DNA of 64,000 bases, taken from contig JAWCLH010000012.1 in the NCBI GenBank assembly GCA_038851035.1, positions 1 to 64,000 on the forward strand, given 5' to 3'. The DNA is from Thermoplasmata archaeon (GTDB lineage Archaea > Thermoplasmatota > DTKX01 > VGTL01). Position numbers and translations under genes: made by a program. Positions 15,618 to 62,331 of the stretch are shown here, in pieces (position 1 is the stretch's first letter; every line of letters starts with the position of its first letter). The notes under the pieces are model-generated. The model was not told the origin of the DNA. It worked only from the letters and a program-made list of their open reading frames with translations, and did not search any database.

Positions 15618-18600
15618 CTACCATCTGTCGAACTTTCTCTTGAGCTGGTTATACTCCAGCTCCTTCAATGCCCGGCTGTTCACGGGAACAAGCACCGTGG
15701 CCTCGTGAAGCGACGCAACCTCATTGATATTGTGTACGAACTCCAGTACTTTCTCGAATCCATGGGTCTGAATCAGTAGCTCAAGACCATCAATCACCAC
15801 CACAGCGCTCGAGCGGTGAGTCTTTATGAACTCCAGAATTCTCTCGGTCATTTCATAGTCCATCTTGGAGGGTTCAATGTTTGGAGCCTCTTCATCGGAT
15901 ATCTCGGAGAGCCAAAGGACATCGATGCCTCGGGTTTCCAGAATTCCTGGTATTTTCTTCGGGTGGGTGTGGGAGATCAGGAGGCCTCTCGCTCCCTCCG
16001 ATACCAATCTGCGCAGGGCGTCATAGGCGGGTTCTGGCTTTTCGGTGTCTATCAGATAGTTCAGCCCCATCTCAACCACAGGAGGAGGCCCCTTCGGTGG
16101 ACCCCGGAGAGGCGTGGTCGCGGGCGCGCGCTGCCTCCTCCTCAATACCACAACCGCTGCAAAGGCGCTTAGGAGGGCCAGTAGACCGATGAGGAGGGCC
16201 AAGATAGCGAGCCGGGTCATTTCAGGGCCCTCGGATGGACCCTTTCCAGCGACCCTGAGTTCCGATGTATACACGTCGGTGAGGCCGCCACGGTCCCTGA
16301 CCCTGAGTCTGACGGTGTAGGCCCCCGGAGTGTGGTAGACATGATACACTACTTTCCCCAGAGCCCCCTGACCATCCCCGAAATCCCAGCTGTAGTTCAA
16401 GCTCATGGAGTCCTCGTCGATGGTAAGAGAGGCGTCGAATTCGACCTCTTGCCCCACTTTCGGGGAGAATGGCCTGAAGGAGAACTGGGCGACCGGGGGC
16501 AGGTTCTCGCCCCTCCTGAAAACCCTCACAGCCAGCATGGCCTCGGAGCTCTGGTTCATAGAGTCTCTAACGACCAGCCGGACCACGAAGGCCCCGTCCC
16601 TCGAATAGATGTGTGAGACCAGCACACCACGCCCGATTCCGCCGTCTCCGAAGTCCCATTCGAAACTGGCGGATGCGAGATCCTCGTCAGAAGAGTTGGA
16701 GGCGTCGAAAATCACGGGTTCTCCGGCGTAGGCCATATTGTGCTGTGTTATTTGGGCAAGAGGGGGCAGATTCGTGCCCTGGACGAAGACTTTAATGGAG
16801 CGATAGGCGGTGTCCGACTGTCCGGAGGAGTCTGTGACCCTCAGCCTCACGGTGTATGTCCCCTCTTTTTTATATACATGTGATACCACAGCGCCCATTG
16901 CTCCCGAGCCGTCCCCGAAATCCCACTCGTACCTTAGCGTCTGCGGGTCCTCGTCCGTGGAGCCGGAGCCGTCGAATGTGACCGGCACGTCTGTGTATAC
17001 GGTCGGAATAGATGCGATTCTGGCTGAGGGTGGGTAATCGGCGCCTCTGACCAACACCCGGACGTCGCTGCGGGTTGTGCAGGTAAGCCCCGCGCGGTCT
17101 CGGACCGTCAGGGTGACCCTGAAGACGCCGGGCTGGTTGAAGGTGTGATTTACGACTGTACCTTTCACGGGCCCCGAGCCGTCTCCGAACTCCCACTCGT
17201 GCGAGACTGCGTCCACCGACTGGCTGCCATCAAAGAGGGCCGTCTCGCCTAAGTATATTGGATAGGGGACCGACATCACTGCTATGGGCGGGGTGCGGTC
17301 AACTTTGACCACGCGCTCCTCCGGCCGCTCCTGATTTCCCACATTATCGGAGGACCAGAAGAGCAGCACATGCTCCCCATCGCTCTCGAGAATCAGCTCC
17401 CTCCCAGTGATTAGCTGGCCGCCGTCTAATATGTAGAACGTGTGGGCGACGCCGCTGCATGCGTCGGAGGCGTTAAGAAGGACGCGGACCGGACTCGTGA
17501 ACCATCCGTTCTCTCCATCTGGTTCTGGCGGCTCGGTTTGCAGTTCGGTGACAGGCGGTGACGCGTCCTGGGCCGAGTGGACGGGCGCTGATGGGGGACC
17601 CTGTAGCCCTGCGCAGTCCACGGCCGACACTATATAAAAATATCTAACCCCATCGGCCAGACCCTCAAATACGTGGAAGGTCCGATTTCGGACATCCACA
17701 ACCGCCACAGGGTTCCTGAAGTCCGGGCCGTCGTCACAGATGAGCGTGTAGCGGTCGATACCGGATGTCACCTCTTCAGGAGCGCTCCAGCTCACATTGT
17801 TCTGGGTCCCACGCGTAAATAACGACATTTCCCTCATCACAGGTGCGCCGGGGGGTGTGGTGTCTACGGGAATCACAAACGACGGGCTCGAGTTCAGGTT
17901 ACCAGCGATGTCACGGATTGTGAACCGGATGAGGTTCCGGGATGCGGATTCCCTATTAAATGGAACCCTCGCGGCTGATAGGCTTAGTACCAGTGGCGCC
18001 CCCGAAACCCGCCCGCCCGAGAATGTCAAGTTGGGAACTGGGGACCAGCTCTCCCCTCCATCGACCGAGAAGCTGGCTTCGGCCGAGGAGCAGTTTAGGC
18101 CGGACAGCACATCAGCGACGCTTACATTGACAGTGGGGCTTCGGTCGGAGGTGTGCCAGCCAACGGGCGCTTCAAGCCTCCATCCTTCGGGCGGGGAGTC
18201 GTCAACCCGTACATAATAGGTGGGGCTGATGTTCAGATATCCAACGACATCCCTTACCATGAAGCGGATGAGGTTGTTGGTCTCTGAGGAGTTTCCGAAT
18301 GGAACCCCCCGCGCGAGCAGGGTTTGCTGTGCGGTGGTGCCCTGTGGGCCCTCGCATTCCGCTGGTAGCCACTCAGACCATCTCGTTCCGTTGTCGGTAG
18401 AGAACTGGTAGCTCGCACTGGAAACATTCAAGCCCGACGTTGTGTCCTGAACGCGAATCGAGCAGTCCGGGCTTGTGTCGTTGGTCCACCCATCCGGCTG
18501 GAATGAAGCCCACCCCTCCGGCGGCTTTGCATCGATGACCGTCTCCCCCGATGGATCTATGCTGCTCCCCGGACACGTACGGCCGTCGATGGTGAGCTCG

Positions 18601-19097: not shown

Positions 19098-19323
19098 GCG
19101 CTTCAGAACTAGGCTCTTCCTCCTTTATAACCGTTATTGAAAGCCTTTTTCTGGTCTCAAACGCATAGGATAAGCGCCACGATGATGAAGAACGCATCTC
19201 ACGCTGACCGGTGATGAGTGATGGGCGAGCTGAGTGGTTTGTGGTGCTTATTCTATTTGGTCTATCAATTTATCTAGCATGAATAATCTACTGTTTCTCC
19301 AACCGCTGAGGCGGGTTGCGTCT

Positions 19324-19388
19324 CACGAATTTCGCCACCTCCGACTATTCCCGAATTCAAAGCCTCGTGCGTCCCAGCGAAATTCGTG
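19324..19388. repeat. perfect 12-bp inverted repeat in an intergenic gap
   Basis: CACGAATTTCGC (19324-19335) and its exact complement GCGAAATTCGTG (19377-19388) are separated by 41 bases, inside the 320-base gap between the subtilase stop and the PKD/DUF835 start. No gene is visible in the gap. It could be an RNA hairpin downstream of the subtilase, a regulator binding pair, or a mobile-element scar. Confidence 0.6.
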
Positions 19389-19418
19389 GGGCCATTCCTG
19401 ACTTGACTGAGAGAACTC

Positions 19419-21764
19419 CTATCTGCCCAGCTGGAGAAACTTTGATAGCGAGCCCCTTTTTCGGGCGTACCAGAACAACGCAACACCGACGACCAGACCC
19501 AGCGCGAGCGCCGCCAGCCAGGGTCCCGGGGCACCCTCAGAGGGTGAGGGCCGCGGCCTCTCCGGCGGGGTTAGTCTGTTGAGGTCGTAGAACAGGCGCT
19601 CCATGGTCACCGACATATTACCCCCGGTGTAGGGGCCGAATTCCCATTGGGCATAGGCAGCGTGCAGGTCCACCTCCGGTATCCTCGCCCCTCCGTCCAC
19701 CGGATTGAGCTGGGCCTGAATTCCAATGGTGTACTCCACCAGAAGCTCCCTGAACTGGTTCGTTATCGGGTTCCCGTCCCAGCTCGGTAGCCTAATGAAG
19801 TTTCCCTCGATGTAGAAGTCCCATACGGAGCCCGTGGGGCCTATCGCGCTCGCATCCACCTCGTCGTGCTTCGAGCCCGAATTGGACCACCCCCCGTGGC
19901 CCCTCCAGTCTATGCTCCCGTCGCCGTTGGAATCGACTGCAACAGTGAGCTCCCCGAGCGCCCTCTGCTTGCCTATGGTCGGGTTGTAGTTGAGGTCTAT
20001 GATGAGCTTACCGGCGTTCTCGGGAATAAGCACTTTCCGGGCGTGGTGGGTGACTAGGGTATTCCGGTTATCCATGAGGTATCCCCAGTCACCCTTCCAG
20101 CTCGTCACGATGGTATCGGTCTGCTTCTTCACCTCCTTTTTAACAAGCAGGCCCTGAGCCCTCATATAAGCCTCGAAGGCTTGCTGGGCGGTGGCGCAGA
20201 CGTCGGTCCTCCTCATCTCTTCGAGAGTCAGCGCCACCTCCACCGCCCGACTTGCGTTGACTAGGCCATAGCCCTGGCCATAGTCGTAGGGGTGGTTGAA
20301 GTGGGTCGGAGAGGTCGAGTTGTTGGGAGGGACGCCGTTGGTGCTCTCGTTAACCATGTAGTCGGCCGTGACCTCGAGGATGTACTCCGCCTCGTGAATT
20401 CGGGTCAGGGGGTCTGTCCACCATGTTGGGTCGGAGCCGTTGTAGTTCTCGTGGAGCTCCATAACCCTTAGGCTCGGGCAGGCCTGCCATAGAAGGGCCA
20501 CCAGACCGGAAACGTGCGGCGTGGCCATCGATGTGCCACTTATCGCCATATAATATGCATCAGGAGCGTCCGTGGATGGATTGTTGAGCTTGACCATCGC
20601 GGTTATCTGCGTCCCTCTGGCCTCAGTGGCCCAGATTCTGTAGCCGGGGGCCGCGACGTCGGGCCATGTCTGGTTTAGGTCCGACTGTCCCCGCGAGCTG
20701 AAGTAGGCCAGACCCCCACCATCGTGCAGCGCCGCCGCGACTTCGATTATACATGGAGTGTTGCCGTAGGTGCTGGTCTCTATGGTGTGGCCGTCGTGGT
20801 TGTTCTCGCCCGAGTTGCCGGCTGCAAAGACCACGACGACATTGTTCTCGTAGGTCAGCTTCATTGCTAGCTGGCTAACAGCATCCTGAGGGTCATATTC
20901 TCCTGCTCCGGCGCCCCAAGAGTTGCTACAGGCCCTTATATTCCAGGGGTTGTTTCCGGGCCGGCTGTGCTCGTAGACCCACTCCAGCGCGCCCACGACG
21001 TTCTGCAGCCAATGCTCCCCGGTACTAATTGAGACCAGCCTCGCACCAGGTGCCACGCCCCTCCGGGCTCCAGCGGAGGCGTCGCCGTTCCCTAGGATGG
21101 TCCCAGCGCAGTGAGTCCCGTGCCCGCTCCCAGTGTCCGTGTCCTGCATCTCAGTGAAGCTCTGGTCAAAGTCCGACTTGAGATTGATTATCACCTTCTC
21201 CCCGTAGTCGAAGTCCGGGTGGCCACCGTCGCACCCCGTGTCCACCAGAGCCACCGTCACGCCAGTCCCATCTATCGGATGACGGGTGTAGCCTCCCCTC
21301 TCGATTATCTCCGAGGCCCACACTGTTGTGGCATTTATAACGGTCGTCGTTCCGTTCATCAGGAGTTCCATTCTCGAATTGTGCTCCATCCAAAAGGTTC
21401 GGGGGTACTGGGAGAGGAGGAAGATGGCCTCTCTCGTGCCGATCGCGTAGACCGCTGGGAGGGCCCGGTATTCCCTTAAAACGCGAATGCCGAGGTTGCT
21501 CAGAACTTCCCGGTCCTCGCTGGTTATCCTCCCGACGAATTGGGCGATAACCCCGACCTCATCGCCGGGGCGCTTCAGGGCGAGCGTTTCAGCAAGGGCC
21601 CGGTCAAGCACCGAATCCGGTCTGGGGAGAGCCGGTAGATGGGTGTGGTGTTTGGGGGTCGCCGGTTCGACCGGGAGGGATGCCGAGGGGAGGGAGACGA
21701 GTAGGATTGCAATGGAGATTGAAAGAAAGAGCCACCGGGGTCGCCCCCCGCCGGTTGCTGACAT
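19419..21764 (-). CDS. membrane-anchored S8 (subtilisin-like) serine protease
   Basis: A 781-residue secreted protease. Signal peptide at about 1-30 and an I9-like propeptide (about 65-135). The catalytic triad is Asp175 (VALVDTGCDG), His215 (GHGTHCAG) and Ser412 (SGTSMATPHVSG), with Asn317 (AAGNSG) for the oxyanion hole. A long C-terminal beta-rich region follows, then one helix near 750-770 and a basic tail (YARKRG), so the catalytic domain faces outward and stays attached to the cell. All active-site residues are present. It could process neighbouring surface proteins or degrade peptides for uptake; nothing in the sequence decides between these. Confidence 0.93.
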   Translation of the reverse strand: MSATGGGRPRWLFLSISIAILLVSLPSASLPVEPATPKHHTHLPALPRPDSVLDRALAETLALKRPGDEVGVIAQFVGRITSEDREVLSNLGIRVLREYRALPAVYAIGTREAIFLLSQYPRTFWMEHNSRMELLMNGTTTVINATTVWASEIIERGGYTRHPIDGTGVTVALVDTGCDGGHPDFDYGEKVIINLKSDFDQSFTEMQDTDTGSGHGTHCAGTILGNGDASAGARRGVAPGARLVSISTGEHWLQNVVGALEWVYEHSRPGNNPWNIRACSNSWGAGAGEYDPQDAVSQLAMKLTYENNVVVVFAAGNSGENNHDGHTIETSTYGNTPCIIEVAAALHDGGGLAYFSSRGQSDLNQTWPDVAAPGYRIWATEARGTQITAMVKLNNPSTDAPDAYYMAISGTSMATPHVSGLVALLWQACPSLRVMELHENYNGSDPTWWTDPLTRIHEAEYILEVTADYMVNESTNGVPPNNSTSPTHFNHPYDYGQGYGLVNASRAVEVALTLEEMRRTDVCATAQQAFEAYMRAQGLLVKKEVKKQTDTIVTSWKGDWGYLMDNRNTLVTHHARKVLIPENAGKLIIDLNYNPTIGKQRALGELTVAVDSNGDGSIDWRGHGGWSNSGSKHDEVDASAIGPTGSVWDFYIEGNFIRLPSWDGNPITNQFRELLVEYTIGIQAQLNPVDGGARIPEVDLHAAYAQWEFGPYTGGNMSVTMERLFYDLNRLTPPERPRPSPSEGAPGPWLAALALGLVVGVALFWYARKRGSLSKFLQLGR

Positions 21765-21893
21765 TTTTCCTCTCCCACCCTCAATACCTCGACGATAATA
21801 TAATTAATTGTTGGTGCGGGGGCTATGGACGAGGGCTATTGCGCCTGTTGTATCTGGCACGAAGAAATCGGCGAACCAGAACAATTGAGATAG

Positions 21894-21903: not shown

Positions 21904-21925
21904 TGGGGGGCATCAATTTGGGGCT

Positions 21926-37107: not shown

Positions 37108-40080
37108 TCACCAAGCGCGCTCAGAGGGGTAGCAATGGCAACCCTTACCCCTTTTCTCGACACGCACGAGCTTCGCTTCAACCATTTTGGAAATGTGGTA
37201 TGAGACCACCCTTTTACTCAGGCCAGTGCTATGGCATATCTCCTTCTGGGAGATGCTCGGGGTTTTTTTAATGAGCTCGAGAATCTCCTTCTGGACTGGC
37301 GTGAGCTCCACATCGCCCCTCTTTGAGTAGGGCATCTGGGCGGGGTAAAACCTTTTGTAGAGACCATCCCACTCCGAGCGGATGAAGCCCTCTCTCTGAA
37401 GGGTGGAGAGGTGGTAGGTTAGGGTCCCGTTGCCCACTCCCAACCTCTTTTTAATTAGCGTATAGTGAATTCCCGGGTTGCTCTCAACCAGACCGTAGAT
37501 TCGTCCTCTGGTAAAGTGGTCGAGTACCTCCTCCTTATGGAGCTTGGTGTAGAGGGGAATGAAAAGCATCTTAAATATGGCATATTTCCCGTGCTCCGAG
37601 ACGCCAACCAGTACGGCCACCCATGCAGCCAGCCCTACCACGGCAGCGGCCCCCGAAGCTTGTATGGCTCTTGCCGCCTTTGGACCGTTGGGCTCTTTCG
37701 GTTTCTCCAGAATCGTCAGCGCCCAAGTATGGGAGCACAGTAGGCCCTCTGGGTCGCAGGCGACTACCGTCACTATATGATTTCCAGGTGTGAGGGCCTT
37801 GATGGAAAGGGCATTGCCATGTTTTGATGAAGCATTAATGGTCTTCCCGTCCAACCTCCATTCGTAGGAGATGTTCGTTGAATCTGAATCGGTGGCCGTA
37901 ACGCGCAAGACCAGATCTGTTCCCTCCAGCGCGCTTAGGTTCTCGGGTGGTTGGATTGAGATAAAAGTGGGCGGGTCGGGGATGGGCTTCACCACCACCA
38001 TTAGGGTGGCACTGGTTGAGAGCCCTTCTGTGTCCCACGCTTCGATATATATCTCCTCGCTCCCGCTCCAGTTTTCCTTGGGTGTTATGCGGAGAAGACC
38101 GGTTTCGTCGACCGAGACCGAGACCCTGCCCTCATTCCTGAAAACAAGGCTTAGGGACTGGCCCTCGGGGTCGTAGAATAGCTCGGAGATGGCGGGACCG
38201 ACGTGGACTGTGTCCTCGTCAATATGGAGTAGGAACGAGAGGGATGTAGCCATAGGGGGCTTCGGGACCCTGAGCACCCTGATATTGAGCTCGACACTTG
38301 CTTCTGCCCCTGAGGTGTCGAAAGCCCAGACATTGACTCTGTAGTCACCGGGCGGTGCGCGGACCGGACCGCATTCGAGCATGCCACCGGGGTCGATTCG
38401 AAGCTCCAGAGGCGAGGGTGAAACACTGAATGTTAGCTTGTCGCCATAAAACAGGTCAGGGTCTTCAAATAGCTCGGAGACATTGATTAGAGAGGGATAG
38501 GTGACCCCTTCGCTCAGGACAAGGGGCGGGGGAGGTGCTCGCGGGAGAGGCGGGTCGTTGATAGGAAGGACTGTGATTGTGGTCCTCCACCGCGCAGAGG
38601 CGCCCATTGAATCAAGCGCTTTCACCACCAGCTCCTCACTTCCAGACCAGTTCGGAATCGGCACCACGGCAAGCTCTGAGGGGCCGGTGAGCCGCGTCGA
38701 GAGGTGCCCTGAGCCTATAGCGGTAAAGCTGATTCTGTCGCCGTCTGGTAGGTCCGGGTCGCTGAATATCTCACTTAGCTCAAGGTGGAGCTCCGTGTCC
38801 TCCTCTGTATATAACACAAGCGGGGGAGTTGCCACGAAAGGGGGTCTGTTCTCGCGAGCGACCGTAAAGCTGATGCTGTAGGCAGTGGCAGCTGGAGCGT
38901 CGGTCAGGTCCATGGGGTTGGCTATCGAGAGGCCCCACTTTGCCATCAGCGAGAAATAATATATCCCATCTGCCTCAATTCTCCACGCCAGCTCAAGACG
39001 GTCGGTGGTGGCGGCTTTTCCCTTTGGACTCGGCGGGGGGACGAAATTGGTCACGGAACGAATCACAGTGAGCCTCTCATCGAGCAAGAAGAGCTCGAAC
39101 AGTCCACTCCTCCATCCGTCTCGGAGAGAGACCGTGGCGGAGACCGAGTTTCCGGTTTTCCCGCTGAATCTGTACCAGTCGTAGTGGTCCATGGACTGGT
39201 GAATTGTGTCGTTAAATATTGTGGTGGCATAGACTGCTCGAGTACGGGGCGGAAAATCGTCCTCGCCCGGCTGACCGGCCTCAATAGTAATATTTAGCTC
39301 GTACCTGCCGGAGCCGTTGAAGGCCGTGACGAGAATGAAAAAGTAGCCCTCGTGAGGGGCTCGGGCCTCCAGCGCCTCGCTGGGATCCCCCCACCAAGAG
39401 AGGTCGAGGTAGGTGTATAGATGGGAGAGGGGCCAGAGGTCCATCAGGTAGAGGTCTATTGAGACGTCACTCGCAGGCGGAATGGGAGTCTCGTTCATCC
39501 CTGCCCTGAAAATGTCGCCGGCATTGAGCCACACCTTATAAATATCTGACGGATGGTTGGTGTTATTATAGAGAGTGCCAGAGTAATGCCCACCATTTTT
39601 AACCTCGTATGGCTCCTGGATATTGACGGTTAGGGTGTAATTTCCGGAACCACCTCCAGCCTCAACGAATACCCTAATGTAGTGGGATCCGGTCAGGGGA
39701 GTGACGACGACAACAGTCTCGTAACGGTGGGGCGAGGTCGAGTAACCCTCCCTGAAGGGGATACCCTCCCTTATCGTGTAGACCTCAAGCGAGGCGTTTA
39801 AAAATGGCCAATCGAGGGTGTAGAGGGTGGCGTTCAGGACCTTCCCCTTCTCCGCCTGAACGCTGAACCAGTCGACGTCATCCACTCCCTCGCCGAGCCA
39901 GTACCGGCCGGTCTCCCCCGACTTCAGGGGGTGGGCCGTTGGAAGGTCATCGTTGGGCTCGACCCCCTCGTCCCCGCCAGCTCGACTGGCGGGGCTCTCG
40001 CTCGGGACGGGAATGGTAAAGAAGGCTCCAGCGATTGTAGCGATTAGGAGCAATACTGTCGCTGAGCGCATCTGCCCCAT
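37108..40080 (-). CDS. PPC/cadherin-like surface protein with cytosolic tandem winged-helix domains
   Basis: A 990-residue single-pass protein. A signal peptide (GQMRSATVLLLIATIAG) is followed by PPC domains, then cadherin-like repeats with VLPINDPPLPRAP- and VKPIPDPPTF-type linkers (about 400-810), and one helix (AAAVVGLAAWVAVLVG, about 830-850). The cytosolic tail of about 140 residues holds two winged-helix domains: IYGLVESNPGIHYTLIKKR-GVGNGTLTYHLSTL and EILELIKKTPSISQKEICHSTGLSKRVVSYHISKM. Those helices resemble ArsR/MarR-type readers and predict a membrane-bound transcription regulator. A TATA box at 40106-40117 favours ATG 40080 over the longer frame beginning at 40131. Confidence 0.88.
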   Translation of the reverse strand: MGQMRSATVLLLIATIAGAFFTIPVPSESPASRAGGDEGVEPNDDLPTAHPLKSGETGRYWLGEGVDDVDWFSVQAEKGKVLNATLYTLDWPFLNASLEVYTIREGIPFREGYSTSPHRYETVVVVTPLTGSHYIRVFVEAGGGSGNYTLTVNIQEPYEVKNGGHYSGTLYNNTNHPSDIYKVWLNAGDIFRAGMNETPIPPASDVSIDLYLMDLWPLSHLYTYLDLSWWGDPSEALEARAPHEGYFFILVTAFNGSGRYELNITIEAGQPGEDDFPPRTRAVYATTIFNDTIHQSMDHYDWYRFSGKTGNSVSATVSLRDGWRSGLFELFLLDERLTVIRSVTNFVPPPSPKGKAATTDRLELAWRIEADGIYYFSLMAKWGLSIANPMDLTDAPAATAYSISFTVARENRPPFVATPPLVLYTEEDTELHLELSEIFSDPDLPDGDRISFTAIGSGHLSTRLTGPSELAVVPIPNWSGSEELVVKALDSMGASARWRTTITVLPINDPPLPRAPPPPLVLSEGVTYPSLINVSELFEDPDLFYGDKLTFSVSPSPLELRIDPGGMLECGPVRAPPGDYRVNVWAFDTSGAEASVELNIRVLRVPKPPMATSLSFLLHIDEDTVHVGPAISELFYDPEGQSLSLVFRNEGRVSVSVDETGLLRITPKENWSGSEEIYIEAWDTEGLSTSATLMVVVKPIPDPPTFISIQPPENLSALEGTDLVLRVTATDSDSTNISYEWRLDGKTINASSKHGNALSIKALTPGNHIVTVVACDPEGLLCSHTWALTILEKPKEPNGPKAARAIQASGAAAVVGLAAWVAVLVGVSEHGKYAIFKMLFIPLYTKLHKEEVLDHFTRGRIYGLVESNPGIHYTLIKKRLGVGNGTLTYHLSTLQREGFIRSEWDGLYKRFYPAQMPYSKRGDVELTPVQKEILELIKKTPSISQKEICHSTGLSKRVVSYHISKMVEAKLVRVEKRGKGCHCYPSERAW

Positions 40081-40292: not shown

Positions 40293-43200
40293 CTACCACT
40301 TGTACCTCTGAAGGAACTCCGGGCGGCTCTCGTCTGCATAGTACCACTTGCCCATTATAGCAACTAGTGGCTCGTTTTGTGGAGACATACCCCTCTCCCC
40401 ATCAACCACCATACTCGCGAGCTCTTCCGGACTCAGGTATTGAAGTTCGAGCGGGAGCATGGGGCGCATGGAGTTTATCGTCCTGAGGACAGTGTCGTAA
40501 TCCGCCTGGGGCTGCATTCCAACAGGGGGTTCCAGCTCAAGAGCTATCCTGCCGCCGGTTTGCTCCTGTTCTATTGCTCCGACCCCAACCTCCGTTCCGG
40601 GAATGGTGGAGCTCGGCGTTTCTGTCTCGGGCGGCGCGACGGTCTCACCTTCGGGAATCCAGCGCGGTCCGGCCGGCTTTGTCTCTTCCTCTTCCATTTC
40701 TGGCCTCTCGCCTCCTCCGGACAATTCACTGGGAACGGCCTCCTCTATTGTCTGGGCAGGGCTTGGCGGCATCGCGGCCCCTTCTTCCAGCGGCTTTTCC
40801 CCTTCTACAACCGTTTGCGGCGCGGAGGAAGCTTCCGCAGCGACCTCCCCTAGCGCCCCCGGAGCAGCTCCTTTCTTGTCTTGCGACGCCAGATACTCCC
40901 TCTCGAGACGCTCGGCTTCTTCTAGAGCTTCTTTTTCCTCCTCCTTTTCCTTTTTTCCCTCCACTTTACCTTTTGAAAGAGCTGTCGGGGACGGCCCCGC
41001 ACCCCGGGCAGGCTCCTTTTCAAGGGGATTAGGAGATGCGGCTCCAGCGGGCGGTAGGGAAGGGGGTTGGACAAGAGGGACACCGGACCTCCTTTTCCTT
41101 GACCACAGGAAACTCCCCGCGCCCACGGCTGCCCCAATAATCATCATTACAATAATTATTATCACCATCTCACCGCTCCCCGCGGAAGCGGTGCTCAGGG
41201 GCTCATTCCTGACTACAATCCGGAGCTCGACCAGCTCCGAGTATCTCTCGCCGTCAAAGGCCCTAACCCGGAGCGTGTGGGGCCCATTTTTCTCTTTGGT
41301 GGTATCCCAGGTGAACGCCCAGTTCTCTGTGCCGGAGGCGTCCTGCCACGAGCCGTTGTCAATACGAATCTGAACGAGCGTGACGCTCTTTCCGGCCTGC
41401 TTGTGCAGCGCAGTCCCAGATATCACAACCTTCCCCCTCACCGTGGCTCCCGGAGCCGGTCCCGAGACGCTCACTTTAATGGGGCTCTCATCGACCCAGG
41501 GCAGTCTAACTCTCGTGGTAGCCTTGGCTACTTCCGGATAAGCTCCAACGTTGCCTGCAACATCGGCGGCTCTGGCCCTGAACGAGTAGGTCTCATTGTG
41601 TCGCCCGGTAAAGACAGCGGATGTGTAATTCACCCCCGTTAGCCAGTCGGTCCATGGACCTTCTCCCACCCGGACCTGGACGTCGTAGTATTTAACTCCG
41701 CTCGTCTCGTCAGCGCCATTCCAACGCACCGTGAAGCTCTCCGTCTCCGTCACTGGAGGGAGGGTCGAGACCACACATGAGGGGGGAGTGCCATCATAGA
41801 TGATGGCCTCCGAGACCGGATAACCGGCGTTTCCGGCTAGGTCACGCACCTTTGCGTAAACGCGGACCAGGCCCTCTTGGGAAGGGAGTTCGATGGTGCA
41901 TAGGGTTCTGAATGGTTGCCACGATTCACCCACGAAGTTCGAGTTCGTGGATATCATCATCTCTGCGACGCCGTAATTATCTGAAGCCTCTAGCTCCAGC
42001 GTCACGGCGCGGTCTATAGTGTATTCCGCACCACCGTCAATGGTCAGGGAGAGAGACGGAGGGGTTGTGTCTAAAATAATGCTATCGCTCTCGAGGCCCG
42101 AGGTATGGCCGGCGGCGTCCCTGAAGACCGCATAGACTCTTCTCTCCCCATCGCCCGGTCTGAGCTCCCACACCATGCTGGGCTGATAGTCAATCCACTC
42201 CGCATCGTCAAGGGACTGCCTGTTGCTGAGCATCACATCCGATATCCCGGACAGGTCGTAAGCATCTAGGGTAAGTCGTACCGTGGTCGTGGCTGTGAAC
42301 TCTGCCCCGCCATTAATAACCACGCTCCCCCTAGGGGGGGTCTCATCAAGAATGATGGAGTCGCTGCAGACCTCCGACTCCCAGCCGTTGGCGTCTCTGA
42401 ATTTTGCATAAACGGTCTTCTCTCCATCGCCCGGAGATAAAATCCACCTGACCGAGCTCTGGTAGGACTGCCATTGAGCACCACTGAAGGTAGAGTTCTC
42501 GCTCAGCATCACTTTCATTACGCCGTAGCTGTCCGTGGCCCTAAGCTGTAGTTCGACCTCCCTCTGAGGGGTTATGGGTGCCCCGAGGTCGATAAGTATG
42601 GAGCCTATGGGCCTGGTTGTATCGACGTCCAGCTCGATGGCGGTGTCCTTGATGTCGCCCTCATAATCGGTCACCCTGGCCCAAATCGTGTGGTGGCCGT
42701 CGGGTAGCTCGATTGTCACGTACCAGCTCTCCGTCCCCTCGGCCGGTATCCAGGTCTGTTTGCTGTCAGTGCTGACCTCGACCTTGAGGACATTTGCACG
42801 GTAGCTCAGCTGTATCTCTTTGAAAATGGGGCTTGACAGGCCTTGGGGACTGGACATCTCGAAAGAGTATTGGATATAGCGCCGGGCCTCCGGCAGGTTA
42901 GAGCTCTGGCCGTTGGTTACTGTTGTCCATGGTGTGGGATAAGACATGTCCGCGCTCGCCGAGGAGCGAATTCTTACAGAGAGCTGGGTACCGGCGGGGA
43001 CCGTCTCTAACCATGCCACCTTCGTCAGGGTGGGCGCTGGAGACCCGGTGTCATACACCTCTGAGAGGTACCGGCCCTCTTTGCTGAAAAAGCAAGTAAC
43101 ATTGTCCCACACAGACCCGACGACGCCTCCATACATGTAGACCCTGCTCCGGAAAACGCACCGCGGGCTATTCAAAGTGATCGAGTAGCTGCCCAGCTGG

Positions 43201-46423: not shown

Positions 46424-48967
46424 ATGCTCCGCAGAGAGAGAGCGGGATGTCTCCTGCTCGCCGCCGTGCTCATCGCATCGGCCCCGGTCAATATCGGCGG
46501 GGAGGAGCAGACGCTCTTCGCCGGCGGCCTTCCGGACCAGCTCATTCTGTTCCCTCCCGGGGGTGGCGAGAACTCCTCCGTCGCCGTCGAGCTGCCGGCG
46601 GGGGTCGAGGTCCTCAACGCCTCGATGGACCTTGAGGGCAGGCGGGCCCTGAACGGCTCGACAAACTACACGACCGACTTCTTCATTCCGCAGAGGAACC
46701 TGGCGTGGGCAGGCAACGCCAGCGTTCTACCCCCGGTTCTGCCCCCGGCGAGCTATGAGGCCCTGAATATCACGGCTGCGCCGGGAATCAAGAAGAGCGA
46801 CGACGTCAGGTACGAGAGCTACACCATCAACTCCGCCCCCTACCATCTCTTCGAGTTCTACGTCGGTGAGGCGAATGTGAGCGCATTCAACATCACCTGG
46901 GAGGGCATAGGCTTCACCCAGCCCCAGATCGGCTTCGGAGACAACGGCGCAACCATCTATCTCTGGGACCGCGTCGCGAGGGTCTGGGTAGCGATGGACA
47001 CCCAAGGCACGCCCGAAGTGCCCATGGAGGTTGTCCTGACTGCGAGCTCGACGGTGAATCCCTTGAGATACATCGACCAAGAAGGGTACATATATGCTTT
47101 CGTGGCCCCCAAGCGAATTCAATACAGTAACGAACTCGAGACGGATTATGTTAAGTTGACCTTTGGCGCGTACTACGCGTCCTACCCGGAGAACCTCACT
47201 CTCGACGTGGGCGCGGACGGGAGCGTGGAGTGGGAGCGCCGGGGGCCCCTCAACGCAACCGAGATCTTCTCCGGGGCCGCCTTTGTTAGCGCGCTTCAGA
47301 AGGCTGTGGACGCAGCCCATGGCGGCACCGTGCGAATTCCCCTCAAATTCACTTCCACCAGCGGCGGCCTGCTCTTCCTCTCCAACCTGAGCATCGGCTA
47401 TGGACCGAAGGACCTGCCTCCCGCGCTGGTCAGGAGCATCCCCGCTCTCGAGCTCCCCGAGGACGGCAACATCACGGGCGCTTTGGACCTGAGGGAGCAC
47501 TTCAGCGACGACGGAGGGGCCGGCAACCTGAGCTTTGAGTTCGTGTGGGAGGGCGGGAGCGGCGAGGTCGAGGCCGTGATAGAGGGCGGGGTGCTCAGCC
47601 TCTTCGCCCGGGCTCCGGACTGGAACGGTGACCTCAGGGCGCACGTGAACGCTACCGATGCCAAGGGTCAGGTCGCGGTCTCCAACTCGTTCAAGGTGCG
47701 GGTTATGCCCGTGAATGACCCGCCGGTGCTTGAGCCCGTGGGCGAGCTCAGGGCGAGGGAAAGGGTCCCATTCGAGTACGACTTCAACGCCACCGATGTG
47801 GACGGGGACAGGCTGACCTACTCGCTGAACTCAAGCATTATGAGCATCGACCCATCGACCGGGCTGGCGCGCTTCACACCCTCCGCTAGGGACATAGGCG
47901 TCCACATGTTGAAAGTGGCTGTCGAGGACGGGGCGGGGGGCAGGGACTCGCTCAACTTCACCCTCGTCGTAGAGAACGTGAACGACCCTCCAGTGCTCTC
48001 CCAGCCTGAGGACGCAACGGTGGAGGAGGGGCAGGAGTTCACGATGAGACTTGAGGCCCGGGACCCGGACGTTGAGCTCGGTCTCGATGCCTTGAGATTC
48101 TCGGACGACTCGCCGCTGGTGACGACCACTCCGGAGGGTCTCGTACGCTTCCTCCCGGACGACGAGCACGTCGGCGTCCACAGGGTCAACTTCACTGTGA
48201 CGGACTCCACCGGTCTCTCGGACACGAAAGGCATGACGCTGACGGTCCTCAATGTCAACGACCCGCCCGTGCTCCTGAACCCCGGCGACCTGACGGCGGA
48301 GGAGGACCGGCCGTTCTATATGAAGCTCAACGCCACGGACGAGGACGCGGGAGACTCGCTCAGGTTCAGCTCCTCGACATCCCTATTCATTATAAGCCAA
48401 GCCGGGGAGATATCCTTCACCCCGACCCAGAAAGACGTCGGAAAGCACCTTGTCCGCATCACAGTGACAGACAGCGCAGGGGCGAGAGCGTCGGTGGAGT
48501 TCAACCTGACCGTCCTCAATGTCAACGACCCGCCTGAGAGGGTGAGAATTCTGAGTCCTCTGGAGGGCCAGAGCTTCATCGAAGGAAAGGAGGTGACGCT
48601 CGAGGCGGAGGCGGAGGACGAGGATGGGGACGAGCTGACCTACACCTGGTACTCCGGCGGGAGCGAGCTGGGCAAGGGGAGGGTGGTGAGCACCAAGGCC
48701 CTGAAGGCCGGCGACCATTCAATCACAGTCAAAGTCAGCGACGGAAAGGAGACCGTTTCCTCCGCACCCGTCGCAATAAAGGTGAAGAAGCCACCCGGGA
48801 AGAAAGGGGGCTTCATGCCCGGCTTCGAGGCCGCCGGCCTCCTCGCCGCTTTGCTCCTCCTCTGGAGCGGAAACCGATTCCGGAGGAGCCGGGCCGGGCG
48901 CGGCCTTCTGACTAGGTCGCCCTGGGGCCCTTGTAGAGCCCGCTCCTCCCGCATCCGGGGCAGGTGA
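46424..48967 (+). CDS. cadherin-like repeat surface protein with PGF-type anchor
   Basis: An 847-residue secreted protein. Signal peptide at 1-24, then a unique N-terminal beta-rich domain (about 30-330), and a row of cadherin/dystroglycan-like repeats joined by VNDPPV linkers (about 335-715) ending in a PKD-like domain. The C-terminus has a basic, glycine-rich linker (KKPPGKKGG), MPGFEAAG, a hydrophobic helix and RFRRSRAG, a PGF-type anchor. Unlike usual anchors, about 20 Arg/Gly-rich residues follow; these are encoded opposite the end of the gene at 48912-54140. GGGTGA five bases before ATG 46424 decides the start over GTG 46415. Confidence 0.85.
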   Translation: MLRRERAGCLLLAAVLIASAPVNIGGEEQTLFAGGLPDQLILFPPGGGENSSVAVELPAGVEVLNASMDLEGRRALNGSTNYTTDFFIPQRNLAWAGNASVLPPVLPPASYEALNITAAPGIKKSDDVRYESYTINSAPYHLFEFYVGEANVSAFNITWEGIGFTQPQIGFGDNGATIYLWDRVARVWVAMDTQGTPEVPMEVVLTASSTVNPLRYIDQEGYIYAFVAPKRIQYSNELETDYVKLTFGAYYASYPENLTLDVGADGSVEWERRGPLNATEIFSGAAFVSALQKAVDAAHGGTVRIPLKFTSTSGGLLFLSNLSIGYGPKDLPPALVRSIPALELPEDGNITGALDLREHFSDDGGAGNLSFEFVWEGGSGEVEAVIEGGVLSLFARAPDWNGDLRAHVNATDAKGQVAVSNSFKVRVMPVNDPPVLEPVGELRARERVPFEYDFNATDVDGDRLTYSLNSSIMSIDPSTGLARFTPSARDIGVHMLKVAVEDGAGGRDSLNFTLVVENVNDPPVLSQPEDATVEEGQEFTMRLEARDPDVELGLDALRFSDDSPLVTTTPEGLVRFLPDDEHVGVHRVNFTVTDSTGLSDTKGMTLTVLNVNDPPVLLNPGDLTAEEDRPFYMKLNATDEDAGDSLRFSSSTSLFIISQAGEISFTPTQKDVGKHLVRITVTDSAGARASVEFNLTVLNVNDPPERVRILSPLEGQSFIEGKEVTLEAEAEDEDGDELTYTWYSGGSELGKGRVVSTKALKAGDHSITVKVSDGKETVSSAPVAIKVKKPPGKKGGFMPGFEAAGLLAALLLLWSGNRFRRSRAGRGLLTRSPWGPCRARSSRIRGR

Positions 48968-51900
48968 TTTTCACAGGGTAGGTGCTGGTATATATCGGGA
49001 CCCGGGCTCCGCAGGCAGAGCATCGTATTGTTTTGACGGGAGCAGGTGCCTCCCCCGCCGGGGGTGTCTGTTGTCCAGGAGCCCCCTGAGTTCCTGCTTG
49101 GGCCGCGCCTGGGATAGTTTCACCCCCGCCCCCCTGTTGCGTCCCCTGCGTCCCCCTACCGGCCCCACCCGGCTTGTAGGGGCCTCTCCTGCCACAGATG
49201 GGGCAAACGACCTCCTGCGGACCGTCGTGGTAAAGCGGAATTCTCGTTCTACATACGGGGCACCGGATATGCTTCACCGGCTCCCGGACGGGGGCCTCCA
49301 TGGGCTGGCTCCTCTGTGGCCCCACTGGAATCGCTCCAACCTCCGCACTCCGAGCCTCTGCAGCCCCAGCGGCCCTTATTTCACCCTGTCTTGCCCCACC
49401 TCCGACTTCTGGCGTTGACGCTGCTGACTTCGATATTGAGTCCTTGGGTGCAGGGGCCTCCGCTCCCCTGTCTTCCATCTCGAGCACCTCGACTTCTGGC
49501 TCTTCCGTAGCAGGGCCCGAGGGCACTCCTGGCCGGGGCCTCTGGCGGTGGAAAATGGCCACGCTGGCTGCAAGGAGCAGTATAAAGGCCACGGCGAGGA
49601 CCACCAACATCCACGGAAACTCACTCCTCACAGCCCTGGGGTTGGGGCTGGGCAGCGGTCCCGGGCCCTTCAATGTCGTGAAGTTGAGGTCAGCTATCGA
49701 TCTAGCAATGTTCCCGGCAGGGTCCACAGAGACCACCCTGAAGCGATAGGTGGTGCCTGGACTGAGTCCCGTGAGGTGAATCGAGTGGTTCAGGACCATC
49801 ATCATCGAGGACACGTTCCGGCCATAAAATAAGTCCGTCCCGAATTCGACCGAGCTGGTCGAGGGCTCATCGGTGTTCCAGATAATGGTCGCGCTGCTGT
49901 CTGTGATATTGACCACTTGAACCCCGGTTATGACAGGTGGAGTGGTGTCCGGCTTCGAGCCCGTGGTGAAGGTTATGTCAGGACTGAGGGATGGGCCGTT
50001 ACCATAAACGTCGAAACACCTGACCCTGAGATGGTATTCCGTGGATGGCTGCAAGCCATCAAGAAGAACACTGTGGATTATCCCGAAGGCGGCCTCGCTC
50101 ATTCTTAAGCCGTAGGCGGTTGTGGTCCCGTACTCGACCTCTCCACTAGCTGGCTCGTCAGTTCTCCACATTACTACCGCGCGCGTGTCCGAAACGCCTG
50201 CGACCACGAGCTCCGAGATAACAGGGGGGACTTTGTCAGGGCCTGGAGAGCTCTTTCTCGTTCTGAAGCTCATGTCCTCGCCCGTCTTCGAGTTGCCACT
50301 CGGGTCCCTGGAGCGGACTCTGAAGTGGTAGGTGGTGTCGGGTTCAAGCTTCAGTAAAAGAACACTGTGCTGTAGGGTGTAGTCTGGAACCGATGCATAT
50401 AGGCCGTAGGCGGTGGTCTTACCATACTCGACCACAGCATCCGCCAGCTCGTCCGTTTCCCAGATGATTGTCGCCGAGCTCTCCGTCACTCCCTCAACCC
50501 TCACGTTCAAAATCACGGGTGCTCTCGTGTCCGGTTCGGCGAGGGTTGTGAAGGTGAGGTCTTCGCTGAAGGATGGCCCGTTTCCGGTGGCGTCGGTGGA
50601 GCTGACCCGGAAGTGATAAGTCGTCGAGGGGAGGAGGTTGCGCAGGACGATAGAGTGGAGCTGCAGTAGAGACGCGTCCCTCACGCTCTGGCCATAGGCC
50701 GTTGTTGTGCCGTACTCGACCGCGCTGTCGGCGGGCTCGTCCGTCTCCCAGCTGACAACCGCAACGTTGTCCGTTATACCTCCTACCTTCACACCAGATA
50801 TTATGGGCGGTTTTGTATCAGGCTCCGCGAGAGTCGTGAATGTCATGTCCTCGCTCGTTGAGGGCCCATTCCCGCTCGTGTCGGTGGACTGGACGATGAA
50901 GTGGTATGTTGTCGAGGGCTGGAGATCTGTCAGCGTCACGATGTGCTTCAGCACGAAGGCGGGATCGCCGGCCCTGAGGCCGTAGGATGTGTCCCTTCCA
51001 TACAGAACCACGCTGTCGGCTGGCTCGTTGGTCACCCAGCTGACAATCGCTATTCTGTCGGTTATGCCGGATACCGACACCGATGTGATTACTGGCGGGA
51101 ATTTGTCGGGGGCAGGGGCGGTGATGAAAATGTAGTCCTCGGAATAGGAGGGTGGGTTTCCTGCGCGGTCCATAGAACGAACCCTGAAGTGGTACGTGGT
51201 ACCGGGCGAGAGCCCCTGGAGGGTGACAGAATGGGCGATGACATATGAATCATCTCCGGCTGAGGAGCTGTACGAGGTCGTTGTGCCGAACTCGACCCGG
51301 CTGTCCGCCTCCTCGTCCGTGACCCAGGAGACGATTGCTGAAGAGTCGGTAATGCCGCTCACGGAGACCGAGGAAATGACAGGAGGGTGCGTGTCGAGCA
51401 CAATCGAGTCATAGACCGGCCCCGCCTCATTGCCCGCTTTATCCCTGACCATAAAATAGACTGTCTTTGTCCCATCGCCAGGGCTGAGGGTGAAACTCCG
51501 GATTGTAGAGAAAGCCTCCCAGTCTGTCCAGGCTGAGAGGTCTTCGCTGAATCGCATCGCATATGTGCCCGAAGCAGGTGCGGGGTCGGTCGCTCTGAGA
51601 GACAGGGTTATCACGGGGCTTGTGGTATAGCTCGCTCCATCGTTAATCGTTACACTCAGATTCACGGGACTCACGCGGTCGAGAAATATCGTGTCTTTCA
51701 CAGGTCCAGCAACATTTCCGGCCCGGTCGCGGACCTTTAGGTAGACCCCCTTCTCTCCATCCGCGTCTATTCCCCCCGGGCCCGACGTGAGGCTCCAGCC
51801 GTCTTTCGAGGTCGAGAAGAATTCCCAGTTGATGAGCGCACCCTCCTCGTTCGCCAGAGCCATCTCTGAGAGCTGAGACGAAGGGGTCGGGTCCGTTGCG

Positions 51901-54140: not shown

Positions 54141-54328
54141 CTTTTCAACTCCTCTATTTTAATCATAAAATTAGTAGTATATTATTTTTCTGTTATAATA
54201 GTAAAAATATAAAAAGACAGAGAGATTGGAACATAGAGAGATGAAAAATTCATGGATACCCGGCTATTTGGGTGATTCCTGTTGTTCATCCGGAGTTCGG
54301 GGGAGGTCGTTTTCCGAGAATGATTAAT

Positions 54329-54424
54329 CGCCGCCGGACGGATTTGAACCATCGACCTCCCGGTTGCCGCGCCGGGTGCAACCCGGTTAACAGCCGGACG
54401 CTCCACCAACTGAGCTACGGCGGC
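54329..54424 (-). tRNA. tRNA-Asn (anticodon GTT) with a 23-base intron
   Basis: Acceptor GCCGCCG (from 54424) pairs with CGGCGGC (54330-54336 complement), with discriminator G at 54329. D-arm GCTC/GAGC; anticodon loop CTGTTAA with anticodon GTT. The T-arm GATGG-TTCAAAT-CCGTC is standard. Without the inserted 54365-54387 segment the tRNA is 73 bases. The insert lies between positions 37 and 38, the usual archaeal site. Because ACCGGG is directly repeated at both borders, the exact cut is ambiguous by up to six bases. The 5' ten bases overlap the stop region of the HTH gene. Confidence 0.92.
54365..54387 (-). other. predicted tRNA intron (position 37/38)
   Basis: The 23 bases can fold as a 5-bp hairpin, CCGGG-TTGCA-CCCGG. 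Bases 32-35 of the anticodon loop (CUGU) can pair with GCGG near the 3' end of the intron, using two G-U pairs, which gives a relaxed bulge-helix-bulge for the archaeal splicing endonuclease. Base-pairing was worked out by eye. Confidence 0.7.
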
Positions 54425-54810
54425 ATTTGTCTCAGGGGACCAAGCGACTCCCTGACTTTCTTTATCGTAGTCTCCATCTCGCTCAGGAGGGCGTCCATGC
54501 GCGGAAGGAATTCCCCGACCTTCTCTGTGACCACCGCGCCCTCCGGGGAGGGCCGAATCAGCCCCTCCTGCTCAAGAATTCTCAGAGAGTACCGAATCTT
54601 ATGCTGGGGGTGCTTGAGGAGTTCGGCGAGCCGGATAATGCCTATCGGTCCGTGCTGTTTGATTGTTCGAAGCATGAGCACGTGCCTCTGGAGAATCTCC
54701 ATCTCGGTCTGAAGCCTTCTCGTGAGACCTCCCTCACCCTCTGGCAAGGCTTCCTCTCCCAATTCTCCCTGTTCACCCAATCGCCCACCCCCGATTCTTC
54801 TCTGACCCAT
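54415..54810 (-). CDS. winged-helix DNA-binding regulator
   Basis: A 131-residue protein. A Gly/Glu-rich start is followed by a helix (TRRLQTEMEILQRHVLML) and a winged-helix domain (TIKQHGPIGIIRLAELLKHP, KIRYSLRILEQEGLI and an EGAVVTEK wing), then a C-terminal helix suited to dimerisation (LLSEMETTIKKVRESL). This resembles archaeal COG3432-type predicted regulators. ATG 54810 is 17 bases after the L40e stop; the longer frame to 54921 lies inside the L40e gene in another frame and is rejected. Its stop codon falls within the 5' end of tRNA-Asn, so both are probably on one transcript. Confidence 0.75.
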   Translation of the reverse strand: MGQRRIGGGRLGEQGELGEEALPEGEGGLTRRLQTEMEILQRHVLMLRTIKQHGPIGIIRLAELLKHPQHKIRYSLRILEQEGLIRPSPEGAVVTEKVGEFLPRMDALLSEMETTIKKVRESLGPLRQMPP

Positions 54811-56284: not shown

Positions 56285-56308
56285 TCATTGCCAAGACGCA
56301 TACCTCTT

Positions 56309-57103: not shown

Positions 57104-57204
57104 GGGCGCACCGACCGTGAATTGCTGTTAGAGTATTAATTGATTTTTAAAATCCATTCCTGGCGTCCTGCCCTCTTCTGACCTCGTCTGGCCAAGAGGG
57201 GGCC

Positions 57205-57981: not shown

Positions 57982-58013
57982 CTCACGAAAGAAAGGTTTT
58001 GAATGATAAAAAA

Positions 58014-58520: not shown

Positions 58521-58556
58521 CTCTCCCTTAACTGAATAATGAGTATTGTATCAATG

Positions 58557-58565
58557 TTTATATAC
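58557..58565 (+). promoter_or_regulatory. TATA box of the CARDB surface protein gene
   Basis: TTTATATAC is centred 39 bases ahead of ATG 58600 and predicts a leader of about 12 bases. It supports that ATG over the longer frame from 58546, which would begin upstream of the box. Confidence 0.55.
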
Positions 58566-58599
58566 TTTTACAAAAATACTCATCGAAGAGGCCGGGAAA

Positions 58600-61500: not shown

Positions 61501-62331
61501 CCCGAGAAGCTGAGGATAAACATCAGGGGCTTCGACAGGTCCGATAGAAAGTATCTCAGGAACAAAGATGATGTCATCATCTATGGTGATGTGGAATTCT
61601 TAATCATTGATAAAGCGACAAGAAAGGAGAAGAGCCTTGGTGTTGCCTCCAACGCCACTGTGATAGTCTCCGTGCCTGCCGCCGGGAAGAACTTCGTTAC
61701 CACGACCAATGCGATGGGCGGGTTCAGCGTGAACATGGGTAAGTTTTCGATGGTGATGCAGTATACAGTCACCATATCAGCCTCATATACTGCGGGCAAC
61801 CTTAGTCTTAGCGCCCCCTCCGTGGCGGCGGTGTTTACGGTGAAAAAAGCTGTCGTGGGCGCCGAGGCAGCCCCGATTCCTGCCTGGATCATCGCTGTTA
61901 TCGGCACACTGGTCGTCGTCATTGTGGCCGGTGTTGGCTTGTTCCTCTGGAGAATGCAGGTCGAGGCGGCCAAACTGGTCGAGTGCGGCGCCTGTGGGGC
62001 GTTTATTCCTGAGAACGCCCTGAAGTGCCCCAAGTGCAACACGGAATTCGAAACCGAGGTTGTGAAGTGTTCTGCGTGCGGCGCTTGGATTCCGCCGCAG
62101 TCCACTGAGTGTCCCAAGTGTGGCGTGTCGTTCAGGAGAAGAGCCAAGAAAGCGAAGGGCGGAGGACAGGAAGAGGCGGTCAAAAAGGAGGAAAAGCCGG
62201 CGGAGGCAAAAGAGAAAGAGAGGGAGAAAGAGAAGGGGCGGGAAAAACCCACGGAGAAGGGCACCCAACCCGAGTTGCCCCTGCCTCCTCCCCCGGCCGG
62301 CACTCCTCCGCCTCCCCCGCCCAGCCTCTAA
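58600..62331 (+). CDS. CARDB/beta-helix surface protein with cytosolic double zinc ribbon
   Basis: A 1243-residue single-pass protein. A signal peptide (RPSKAWVLGCIVMLTMTMLP) is followed by a CARDB domain (SADLVIIPGSITIS-type start; about 35-145), then a long region of irregular short strands and turns rich in Asn/Ser/Thr (about 170-780) that suggests a right-handed beta-helix, and carboxypeptidase-regulatory-like domains (about 790-1080). One helix (IIAVIGTLVVVIVAGVGLFLW) lies near 1095-1118. The tail has two zinc ribbons (CGAC...CPKC and CSAC...CPKC), a Lys/Glu-rich tract and a poly-Pro end. This is the third zinc-ribbon protein in the window and the second with a membrane anchor. Confidence 0.88.
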   Translation: MRRTESSRPSKAWVLGCIVMLTMTMLPAVVPGDRQSGADLVIIPGSITISPTHPDVGDVVRVMAIIANDGEVSSTVDVFFYDGPPSQGRVIGSYQTVLGEHEQQPVSINWNTSGVPSGFHELWVAAYPSDHPEVDWSDNNASADITLTTIFSWVVYDRLETFPGPTKVMADILGVWGIGRLVIENSTIYFAQERDYQYGIVIDEQGMLTLRNSEIISNFALRILVEGNGQLIVDPDCTLSATVVTRDRAQVRISNSTLTGGLRVRGGNITASDSSVEGVINFERTNATIASTTVLSNETIRITHSTLTAMDSVFQLSGGSLQMAADTMNVTGSSVVWLTGVVSGTIDVRDTSLVYIHRYLTMHAEDTSGLSIPYATLWVRNLFGYGQALCQTTDKYGDARFTVITDILLPGPIPKPIGSYNITGVMGSVHAQTNIQLPFYPTMTPESNNVRRTIVFEPIFYQTGHSPWNVTTPTTKGDPLGPGSYTWSGDIYVWSTLTFHNVPLYIEQPSDFWAGVYIYPTGKMIFQGGGITSNKRLNVYIIGSGQLTIEPTSVMPGVMNINALVGLEDEQTGARGSFNARNIELNGSIMGTFSEVKLTITSLLPHPFNSLRGALVFNVEMGEIGNATIQGPPPGGTASRINVGQSLKFTNCGIAVPELTITGSVVSFSKCVISGDYFEKGLETKANSKLNLTATTISIIECELNYESIELSAQSFISTSTNYPIPLVFDGASAGLLTNVSAPDIVVNGSAEVTVQWLFTLTALDSLGTPVEGAEVTVRNYTTNATIPGGVQSTAANGKAVFLLVGKKVLANEVIFLGNYKVVVSKTTAPGESVTYGPYDISMRENVELTVLMDRYTNPLERLLVKIDNLSKYEGLAEGELIYCRGHVWKIYKGGYVEPAASVPVRLTLSTSGSAFEATTGPDGFFNITFNAPPPSERNITVTVTASVEGAEPGSDSVFNLSVPAPQPEKLRINIRGFDRSDRKYLRNKDDVIIYGDVEFLIIDKATRKEKSLGVASNATVIVSVPAAGKNFVTTTNAMGGFSVNMGKFSMVMQYTVTISASYTAGNLSLSAPSVAAVFTVKKAVVGAEAAPIPAWIIAVIGTLVVVIVAGVGLFLWRMQVEAAKLVECGACGAFIPENALKCPKCNTEFETEVVKCSACGAWIPPQSTECPKCGVSFRRRAKKAKGGGQEEAVKKEEKPAEAKEKEREKEKGREKPTEKGTQPELPLPPPPAGTPPPPPPSL

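Follow-up and report, generated by a model that had tools for sequence, protein, structure and literature searches.

Surface proteins with distinct predicted intracellular modules in a Thermoplasmatota genome: a reused transmembrane winged-helix cassette and candidate one-component regulators

Five large single-pass surface proteins, P0001 to P0005, are encoded in the window analysed here, which comprises bases 1-64000 of contig 12 of an archaeal genome (2.69 Mb, 99% complete, 50 contigs). The predicted intracellular module of P0002 is a tandem winged-helix tail, which recurs in related genomes together with its transmembrane (TM) helix and a conserved juxtamembrane segment and is fused there to unlike ectodomains. 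We consider it reasonably likely that such proteins are membrane-anchored one-component regulators, namely receptor copies of surface proteins, and that they stand beside surface proteins with docking-type tails; our confidence in a receptor role is higher for the winged-helix class and lower for the zinc-ribbon, DUF835 and P0003 tails. The proteins described below bear on the question of how archaea lacking two-component systems perceive their environment; they constitute a large, recognizable set of candidate receptors in which the readout is constant and the outer parts vary. We infer that the host belongs to Thermoplasmatota; its nearest relatives in the comparison set are the genomes G001 and G002. 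G000 designates the home genome, G001 to G004 are relative genomes, and L-numbers denote the loci or proteins examined. Counts for the home genome rest on searches. The winged-helix cassette was searched for in 60 Thermoplasmatota genomes and the P0003 tail domain in 194 genomes; 54 proteins entered the detailed study of the cassette, 50 cassettes were aligned, and ectodomains were compared across tail classes for 112 TM-tailed proteins.

The original prediction attributed one design to the five proteins, consisting of a signal peptide, a long beta-rich ectodomain, one membrane helix and a distinct intracellular module. The open reading frames (ORFs), hydropathy profiles and Pfam searches bear this out: All five frames are open at the coordinates listed in Table 1, and each protein starts with a hydrophobic signal segment and possesses, towards its C-terminus, a single strongly hydrophobic segment, which is followed by a DUF835 domain (P0001), two winged helices (P0002), a 270-residue tail (P0003) or two zinc ribbons (P0004 and P0005 each). 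The count, however, was incomplete, as two further proteins of the window with a signal peptide and a C-terminal TM segment had been missed, a small one at 10368-11738 and a subtilase (19419-21764, minus strand) which directly adjoins P0001, and likewise a soluble tandem-DUF835 protein (8199-9320). An inside location of the tails is suggested by four concordant indications: the signal peptide is followed by a single later span; basic residues come directly after this span; N-glycosylation sequons lie mainly outside (0.9-3.4 per 100 residues in the ectodomains, 0-0.8 in the tails); and cysteines are concentrated in the ribbon tails. In agreement with this topology, the DUF835 and P0003 domains are also present in proteins without a TM helix or signal peptide (window 8199-9320, L002, L217, L218), and none of these signs places a tail outside. 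The term family, which the original prediction had used, is not appropriate if homology is meant. The ectodomains of P0001, P0002/P0007, P0003/P0004 and P0005 form separate groups having at most generic repeats in common, and that of P0005 matches none of the ectodomains of the other four proteins. A single homologous family is thus ruled out; judged by these comparisons, the five proteins have a common plan and not one ancestry.

Both winged helices of P0002 match transcription-factor families (HTH_24, MarR, ArsR) in Pfam, the assigned domains being HTH_HVO_0163_N for residues 874-935 (E-value 3e-13) and HTH_24 for residues 946-990 (3e-16). The AlphaFold2 model of the tail (pLDDT, the predicted local distance difference test, 91) shows the juxtamembrane segment continuing as one long helix into the first winged helix-turn-helix domain (wHTH1), and the winged helices reach pLDDT values of 95-98. 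A profile search against the PDB gave a match to 5duk and, for the second winged helix, to MarR- and ArsR-type regulators; with the model as query, Foldseek retrieved winged-helix proteins, among them structural ones such as ESCRT-II and ScpB. Orthologues of P0002 exist in G001 (49%) and G002 (31%), and in both cases the sequence identity of the winged-helix tail exceeds that of the ectodomain (71 versus 46% and 50 versus 29%, respectively). Near-invariant columns in the alignment of the 50 cassettes are a glutamate after the span, followed by the motifs PLY, LD and RG. Within the winged-helix class, the mean hydropathy of the juxtamembrane segment is 0.75, compared to 2.01 for the TM span; on average it contains 3.2 charged residues in 19, and 3-5 basic residues come next. 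Because of these roughly three charges and the subsequent basic residues, the segment is more likely to be an interfacial helix than another membrane span.

The winged-helix tail, including the juxtamembrane helix, was found in 51 of the 60 genomes with 1-53 matches each, some of which are short and may represent soluble proteins. The home genome has 11 matches; seven of these look intact with a TM helix. An apparently broken copy on contig 3 is split over two reading frames (L112 and L113, G000:C3:133936-134359). A hydrophobic segment lies just upstream of the cassette in 51 of the 54 proteins studied, and nearly all have a signal segment. According to Pfam, the ectodomains comprise a beta-propeller with PKD (L117), beta-helices (L130, L151), Big_7 (L116), CARDB with NPCBM_assoc (L115), CarboxypepD_reg (L118), MG2 (L131) and the PPC/cadherin type of P0002. 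Since there is no homology between propeller, helix and Ig folds, these comparisons identify the combination of one tail with unlike ectodomains as the result of recombination, not of divergence. Similarity between ectodomains was seen in 27 of 1215 pairs whose tails are less than 50% identical, versus 40 of 106 pairs above this value. The proteins reach a length of 2285 residues, and the ectodomains of some relatives comprise only about 150. Such a short-ectodomain TM-winged-helix regulator is followed by a large exported protein at L182 (6530-12432) and also at L183, L184, L186 and L189. The exported neighbour is an SBP_bac_5 protein in L182, L184 and L189; the gene after it is a permease, with BPD_transp_1 confirmed in L184 and look-alike ORFs in L182, L183 and L186. 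In L189, the ectodomain of the short relative is similar to the C-terminal domain of its SBP_bac_5 neighbour (38% over 84 residues, E-value 2e-9), and the same kind of similarity to the exported protein occurs in L182 and L183 (E-values 0.006-0.008). L154 (229-11043) encodes a tandem of two surface proteins with winged-helix tails (1819 and 1746 residues), whose ectodomains are homologous.

The gene next to P0002 encodes P0007, whose ectodomain is 26% identical to that of P0002 over 882 alignment columns (E-value 1e-50). This pair is also adjacent in G002 in the same order, with a gap of 8 bases (L133). In a second, independent ectodomain family the twins are not adjacent: L115 and L124 carry the cassette, and L236-L241 (about 1120 residues), which have clear PGF anchors at their ends, match the ectodomain of these two over 700-1100 residues; both forms coexist in three genomes (G000, G001, G002). 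For P0007 and P0009, which had been predicted to be PGF-anchored relatives, the PGF motif, the TM helix and the basic C-terminus are present, and the genome contains an exosortase/archaeosortase-family gene (PF09721 above cut-off, C37:22703-23560); neither protein, however, matched the NCBIfam PGF-CTERM models at E<=0.01, short models that are easily missed. Like PGF-CTERM archaeosortase substrates, P0007, P0009 and L236-L241 thus end in PGF, a hydrophobic helix and basic residues, in a genome with an exosortase-family gene; they differ in that some of them are twins of receptor-type proteins.

In the set of 112 TM-tailed proteins, ectodomains matched as a whole between a module-bearing tail class and another class in one combination only, the winged helix versus the plain PGF-type anchor, in the two families just described. 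A whole-ectodomain swap among the DUF835, ribbon, P0003-type and winged-helix tails was not found in this set; only generic Ig/PKD-type repeats are common to them. Two apparent pairs linking DUF835 to another tail class were due to a classification miss (L174 aligns with DUF835), and a P0003-type tail on P0009-like cadherin repeats in G003 and G004, being a partial, repeat-based match, was not counted as a swap. Consequently, free exchange of all tails is not supported. Of the proposal that outside parts are recombined with different readouts there remains the one winged-helix tail on unrelated ectodomain folds, whereas the interchangeable outputs narrow down to winged helix versus plain anchor.

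The 99% complete genome contains no match to Response_reg, so that membrane-bound one-component regulators would be a main route from the outside to the genes. Histidine kinases were considered as the source of its three HATPase_c matches and rejected for two of these, which are GyrB and topoisomerase VI-B. The five proteins carry neither HisKA nor HATPase_c domains in Pfam and therefore are not two-component sensor kinases by domain content. Membrane-anchored transcription regulators as such are already known; new are the expanded, C-terminal and fold-independent cassette, the anchored twins and the tail domain of P0003. ToxR and CadC consist of an N-terminal OmpR-type winged helix, a TM helix and a C-terminal sensor. 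P0002 resembles them as a membrane-bound winged-helix protein with an extracytoplasmic sensor part, but the order is reversed (signal peptide, sensor, TM helix and two C-terminal winged helices of the HVO_0163/HTH_24 type); due to this order and the lack of a Trans_reg_C match in Pfam, it does not belong to this group. To our knowledge, the ArnR and ArnR1 proteins of Sulfolobus have no large ectodomain of the P0002 kind. They are likewise archaeal membrane-bound one-component regulators with a helix-turn-helix (HTH) domain, which is located in their N-terminal region (PMC13286277). The domain content of P0002, a DNA-binding domain and a TM helix in the same protein, corresponds to that of a transmembrane transcription regulator (TTR; Demey et al. 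2023, PMC10269533) with a putative regulatory function. TTRs are mostly single-pass and predicted to sense outside and to act on DNA from the membrane; an archaeal genome has 4 +/- 2 TTRs according to the survey, in whose main text Thermoplasmatota do not appear. In contrast, a single cassette accounts here for tens of matches per genome, is C-terminal in signal-peptide proteins of up to 2285 residues and is accompanied by anchored twins (compare PMC10269533). No paper specific to these surface proteins, or to archaeal ones with ribbon tails, turned up in the literature collection searched.

For the winged-helix class we propose the following mechanism. Binding or assembly of the ectodomain would change the packing or the oligomer state of the TM and juxtamembrane helix, and as this helix is predicted to run straight into the first winged helix, DNA binding beside the membrane would be altered; in this way, the protein would signal inward to its target genes. 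The standard TM-winged-helix cassette appears to have been fused to ectodomains already in use at the surface, which would generate the receptor copy of an anchored protein. P0002 (37.1-40.1 kb) would be such a receptor copy and P0007 (33.9-36.9 kb) its PGF-type anchored twin. The receptor could sense the ligand of the twin, or the state of a surface layer that the twin forms, and tune expression of the latter accordingly; the anchored-twin pairs thus offer a concrete guess at what some of the candidate receptors read. A wider notion, which is speculative and rather doubtful at present, is that receptor copies of their own surface proteins serve Thermoplasmatota without two-component systems as a general sensing system. 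The cassette could then be placed on any surface-layer ectodomain, the receptor would assemble jointly with the twin bearing the PGF-type anchor and relay the surface state directly to gene expression, and the DUF835, zinc-ribbon and WYxAD tails would be parallel readouts.

Among the remaining tails, that of P0001 matches DUF835 in Pfam as predicted (PF05763, E-value 1e-22, 80.7 bits versus a gathering score of 33.1) and shows weak similarity to FlaH (E-value 0.0016). DUF835 has been described as inactivated KaiC (iKaiC) and is listed as a response-regulator output (REC-DUF835) in other archaea (Galperin et al. 2018, PMC5847659); here the domain forms the tail of a single-pass surface protein, and the genome has no response regulators. 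By reading, no P-loop (GxxxxGK[ST]) was found in residues 1019-1156, which fits an inactivated KaiC. P0001 has a whole-length orthologue in G001 (46%) and a largely aligned one in G002 (32%), and 88 matches in the home genome indicate that such PKD-rich proteins are not rare there. The soluble protein at 8199-9320 (minus strand), which contains two DUF835 domains, is a possible partner of the P0001 tail. The C-terminus of P0003, merely described as conserved-looking before, proved to be a real domain: homologues occur in 5 of the 194 genomes, all of one class (the host's own), a single genome having as many as eight; several ectodomains carry the domain, two of the proteins have no TM helix, and AlphaFold2 gives pLDDT values of about 92-96 over the last 66 residues of the tail. 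A search against the PDB yielded no match (best E-value 0.29) and hence no known fold at this sensitivity, and the model appears to represent an undescribed small fold. In L163 and L211, the tails continue after the P0003-type domain and end in a helical ...LEGNISEEMYERLK... segment, SHOCT-like in look by eye.

Tandem zinc ribbons had been predicted for both P0004 and P0005. A regular-expression search found four CxxC pairs, i.e. two ribbons, in each; the modules, however, are unrelated, the type in P0004 being CPxC..IPxY..CPxCGxxGxYK and that in P0005 DZR (E-value 5e-5; the 23.9 bits are below the Pfam gathering score of 27.3). P0004 has a full-length orthologue in G001 (51%). The motif E[VT]LxM[DE] occurs in all six P0004-family tails and only once more in 215,229 residues, which points to a docking site; the six tails, however, are paralogues or orthologues and not independent. 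Orthologues of P0005 exist in G001 (58%) and in G002 and G003 (25%), and the ribbons are more similar to these than the ectodomain is (79, 60 and 52% versus 58, 26 and 27%). Tails of the five proteins are conserved in orthologues, as the original prediction would require. Since neither a recognizable enzyme nor a DNA-binding domain is present in the DUF835, ribbon and P0003 tails, these are probably docking sites for cytosolic partners.

Several observations weigh against a regulatory role. The DUF835, ribbon and P0003 tails give no positive sign of an output activity, and in P0001 and P0003 conservation of the module does not clearly exceed that of the ectodomain. No twin lies beside the P0002 orthologue in G001, and no operator common to the upstream regions of P0002 and P0007 was found above shuffled sequence. 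The topology was deduced from hydropathy, charge and sequons, and the juxtamembrane segment is moderately hydrophobic and nearly TM-like in L119, L126 and L127. Some of these points suit an alternative which we consider unlikely, but less so than the others: the proteins could be adhesins or surface-layer proteins whose tails merely anchor or organize them, with modules that bind cytosolic scaffolds and winged helices that tether them to the chromosome or to proteins. Most ectodomains indeed consist of generic Ig/PKD/fn3 repeats typical of adhesins, the PGF-anchored twins demonstrate that ectodomains occur without any tail module, and the structural winged-helix proteins among the Foldseek matches would be compatible with tethering, as would the silence of the other tails. 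Yet the families matched by both winged helices are those of transcription factors, with MarR/ArsR-type regulators as PDB matches of the second one, the winged-helix tail is conserved above its own ectodomain, and the location of some short relatives beside transporter genes is an arrangement typical of regulators.

Release of the winged-helix, DUF835 or ribbon tail by a surface or intramembrane protease cutting near the membrane, as in Notch, is an improbable variant. The single-pass type I design is suitable for cleavage and the surface subtilase gene lies beside P0001, but we saw no cleavage site and no dedicated protease that is conserved together with these proteins, and the conserved juxtamembrane helix, continuous with wHTH1, suggests mechanical coupling. 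That the juxtamembrane segment, with its hydropathy of up to 2.0 in L119, forms a second membrane span and leaves the winged helices outside and unable to bind chromosomal DNA is hardly credible, as its charges and the basic residues after it fit an inside location and we know of no precedent for outward-facing HTH domains.

Table 1. Location of the surface proteins and their features in the window
Feature	Position	Strand	Description
P0001	15618..19097	-	1159 residues; signal peptide, four PKD domains, one TM helix, DUF835 tail
P0001 TM helix	16149..16205	-	residues 965-983; hydropathy 2.87; followed by VLRRRQR
P0001 DUF835 (inactivated-KaiC-like) tail	15630..16043	-	Pfam PF05763, residues 1019-1156
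P0007	33915..36902	-	twin of P0002 with PGF-type anchor; shares its ectodomain, lacks a readout domain
P0002	37108..40131	-	1007 residues; PPC/cadherin-like ectodomain, one TM helix, tandem winged helices
P0002 TM helix	37600..37656	-	residues 826-844; hydropathy; helix in AlphaFold2 model
P0002 juxtamembrane segment EHGKYAIFKMLFIPLYTKLHKEEVLDHF	37516..37596	-	conserved; continuous with first helix of wHTH1
P0002 winged-helix domains (two)	37153..37512	-	Pfam, AlphaFold2, Foldseek, PDB profile match
P0003	40293..43949	-	Ig-like ectodomain, one TM helix, 270-residue acidic/proline-rich tail ending in new domain
P0003 C-terminal hydrophobic segment			residues 929-947
P0003 C-terminal domain	40296..40502	-	residues 1150-1218; pattern LPxGLPxxL...GxWYxAD...FL
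P0009	46415..48967	+	cadherin-like surface protein, PGF-type C-terminus
P0004	48912..54140	-	1742 residues; FG-GAP, Ig-like, fn3 ectodomain, one TM helix, two zinc ribbons
P0004 C-terminal hydrophobic segment			residues 1512-1530
P0004 linker motif EVLEME	49473..49490	-	residues 1551-1556
P0004 zinc ribbon 1	49173..49271	-	residues 1624-1656; regular expression; 64% identity to orthologue
P0004 zinc ribbon 2	48930..49031	-	residues 1704-1737; regular expression; 50% identity to orthologue
P0005	58546..62331	+	1261 residues; beta-rich (beta-helix-like) ectodomain, one TM helix, double zinc ribbon
P0005 C-terminal hydrophobic segment			residues ~1115-1140
P0005 double zinc ribbon (DZR-type)	61984..62124	+	four CxxC pairs; weak Pfam DZR match

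Three further features of the window were noted. An ARAGORN call at 54328-54425 (minus strand) has an odd four-base anticodon and is probably spurious. By reading, a protein of 1924 residues (23369-29143, minus strand) has a zinc ribbon at its N-terminus and otherwise comprises almost exclusively TPR-like repeats; a 29% relative of it is located near the P0003 orthologue in G001 (L155). At 2227-7616 (plus strand), two T2SSE-type ATPases, which are 62% identical, flank two T2SSF proteins and form a duplicated pilus or secretion motor cassette.

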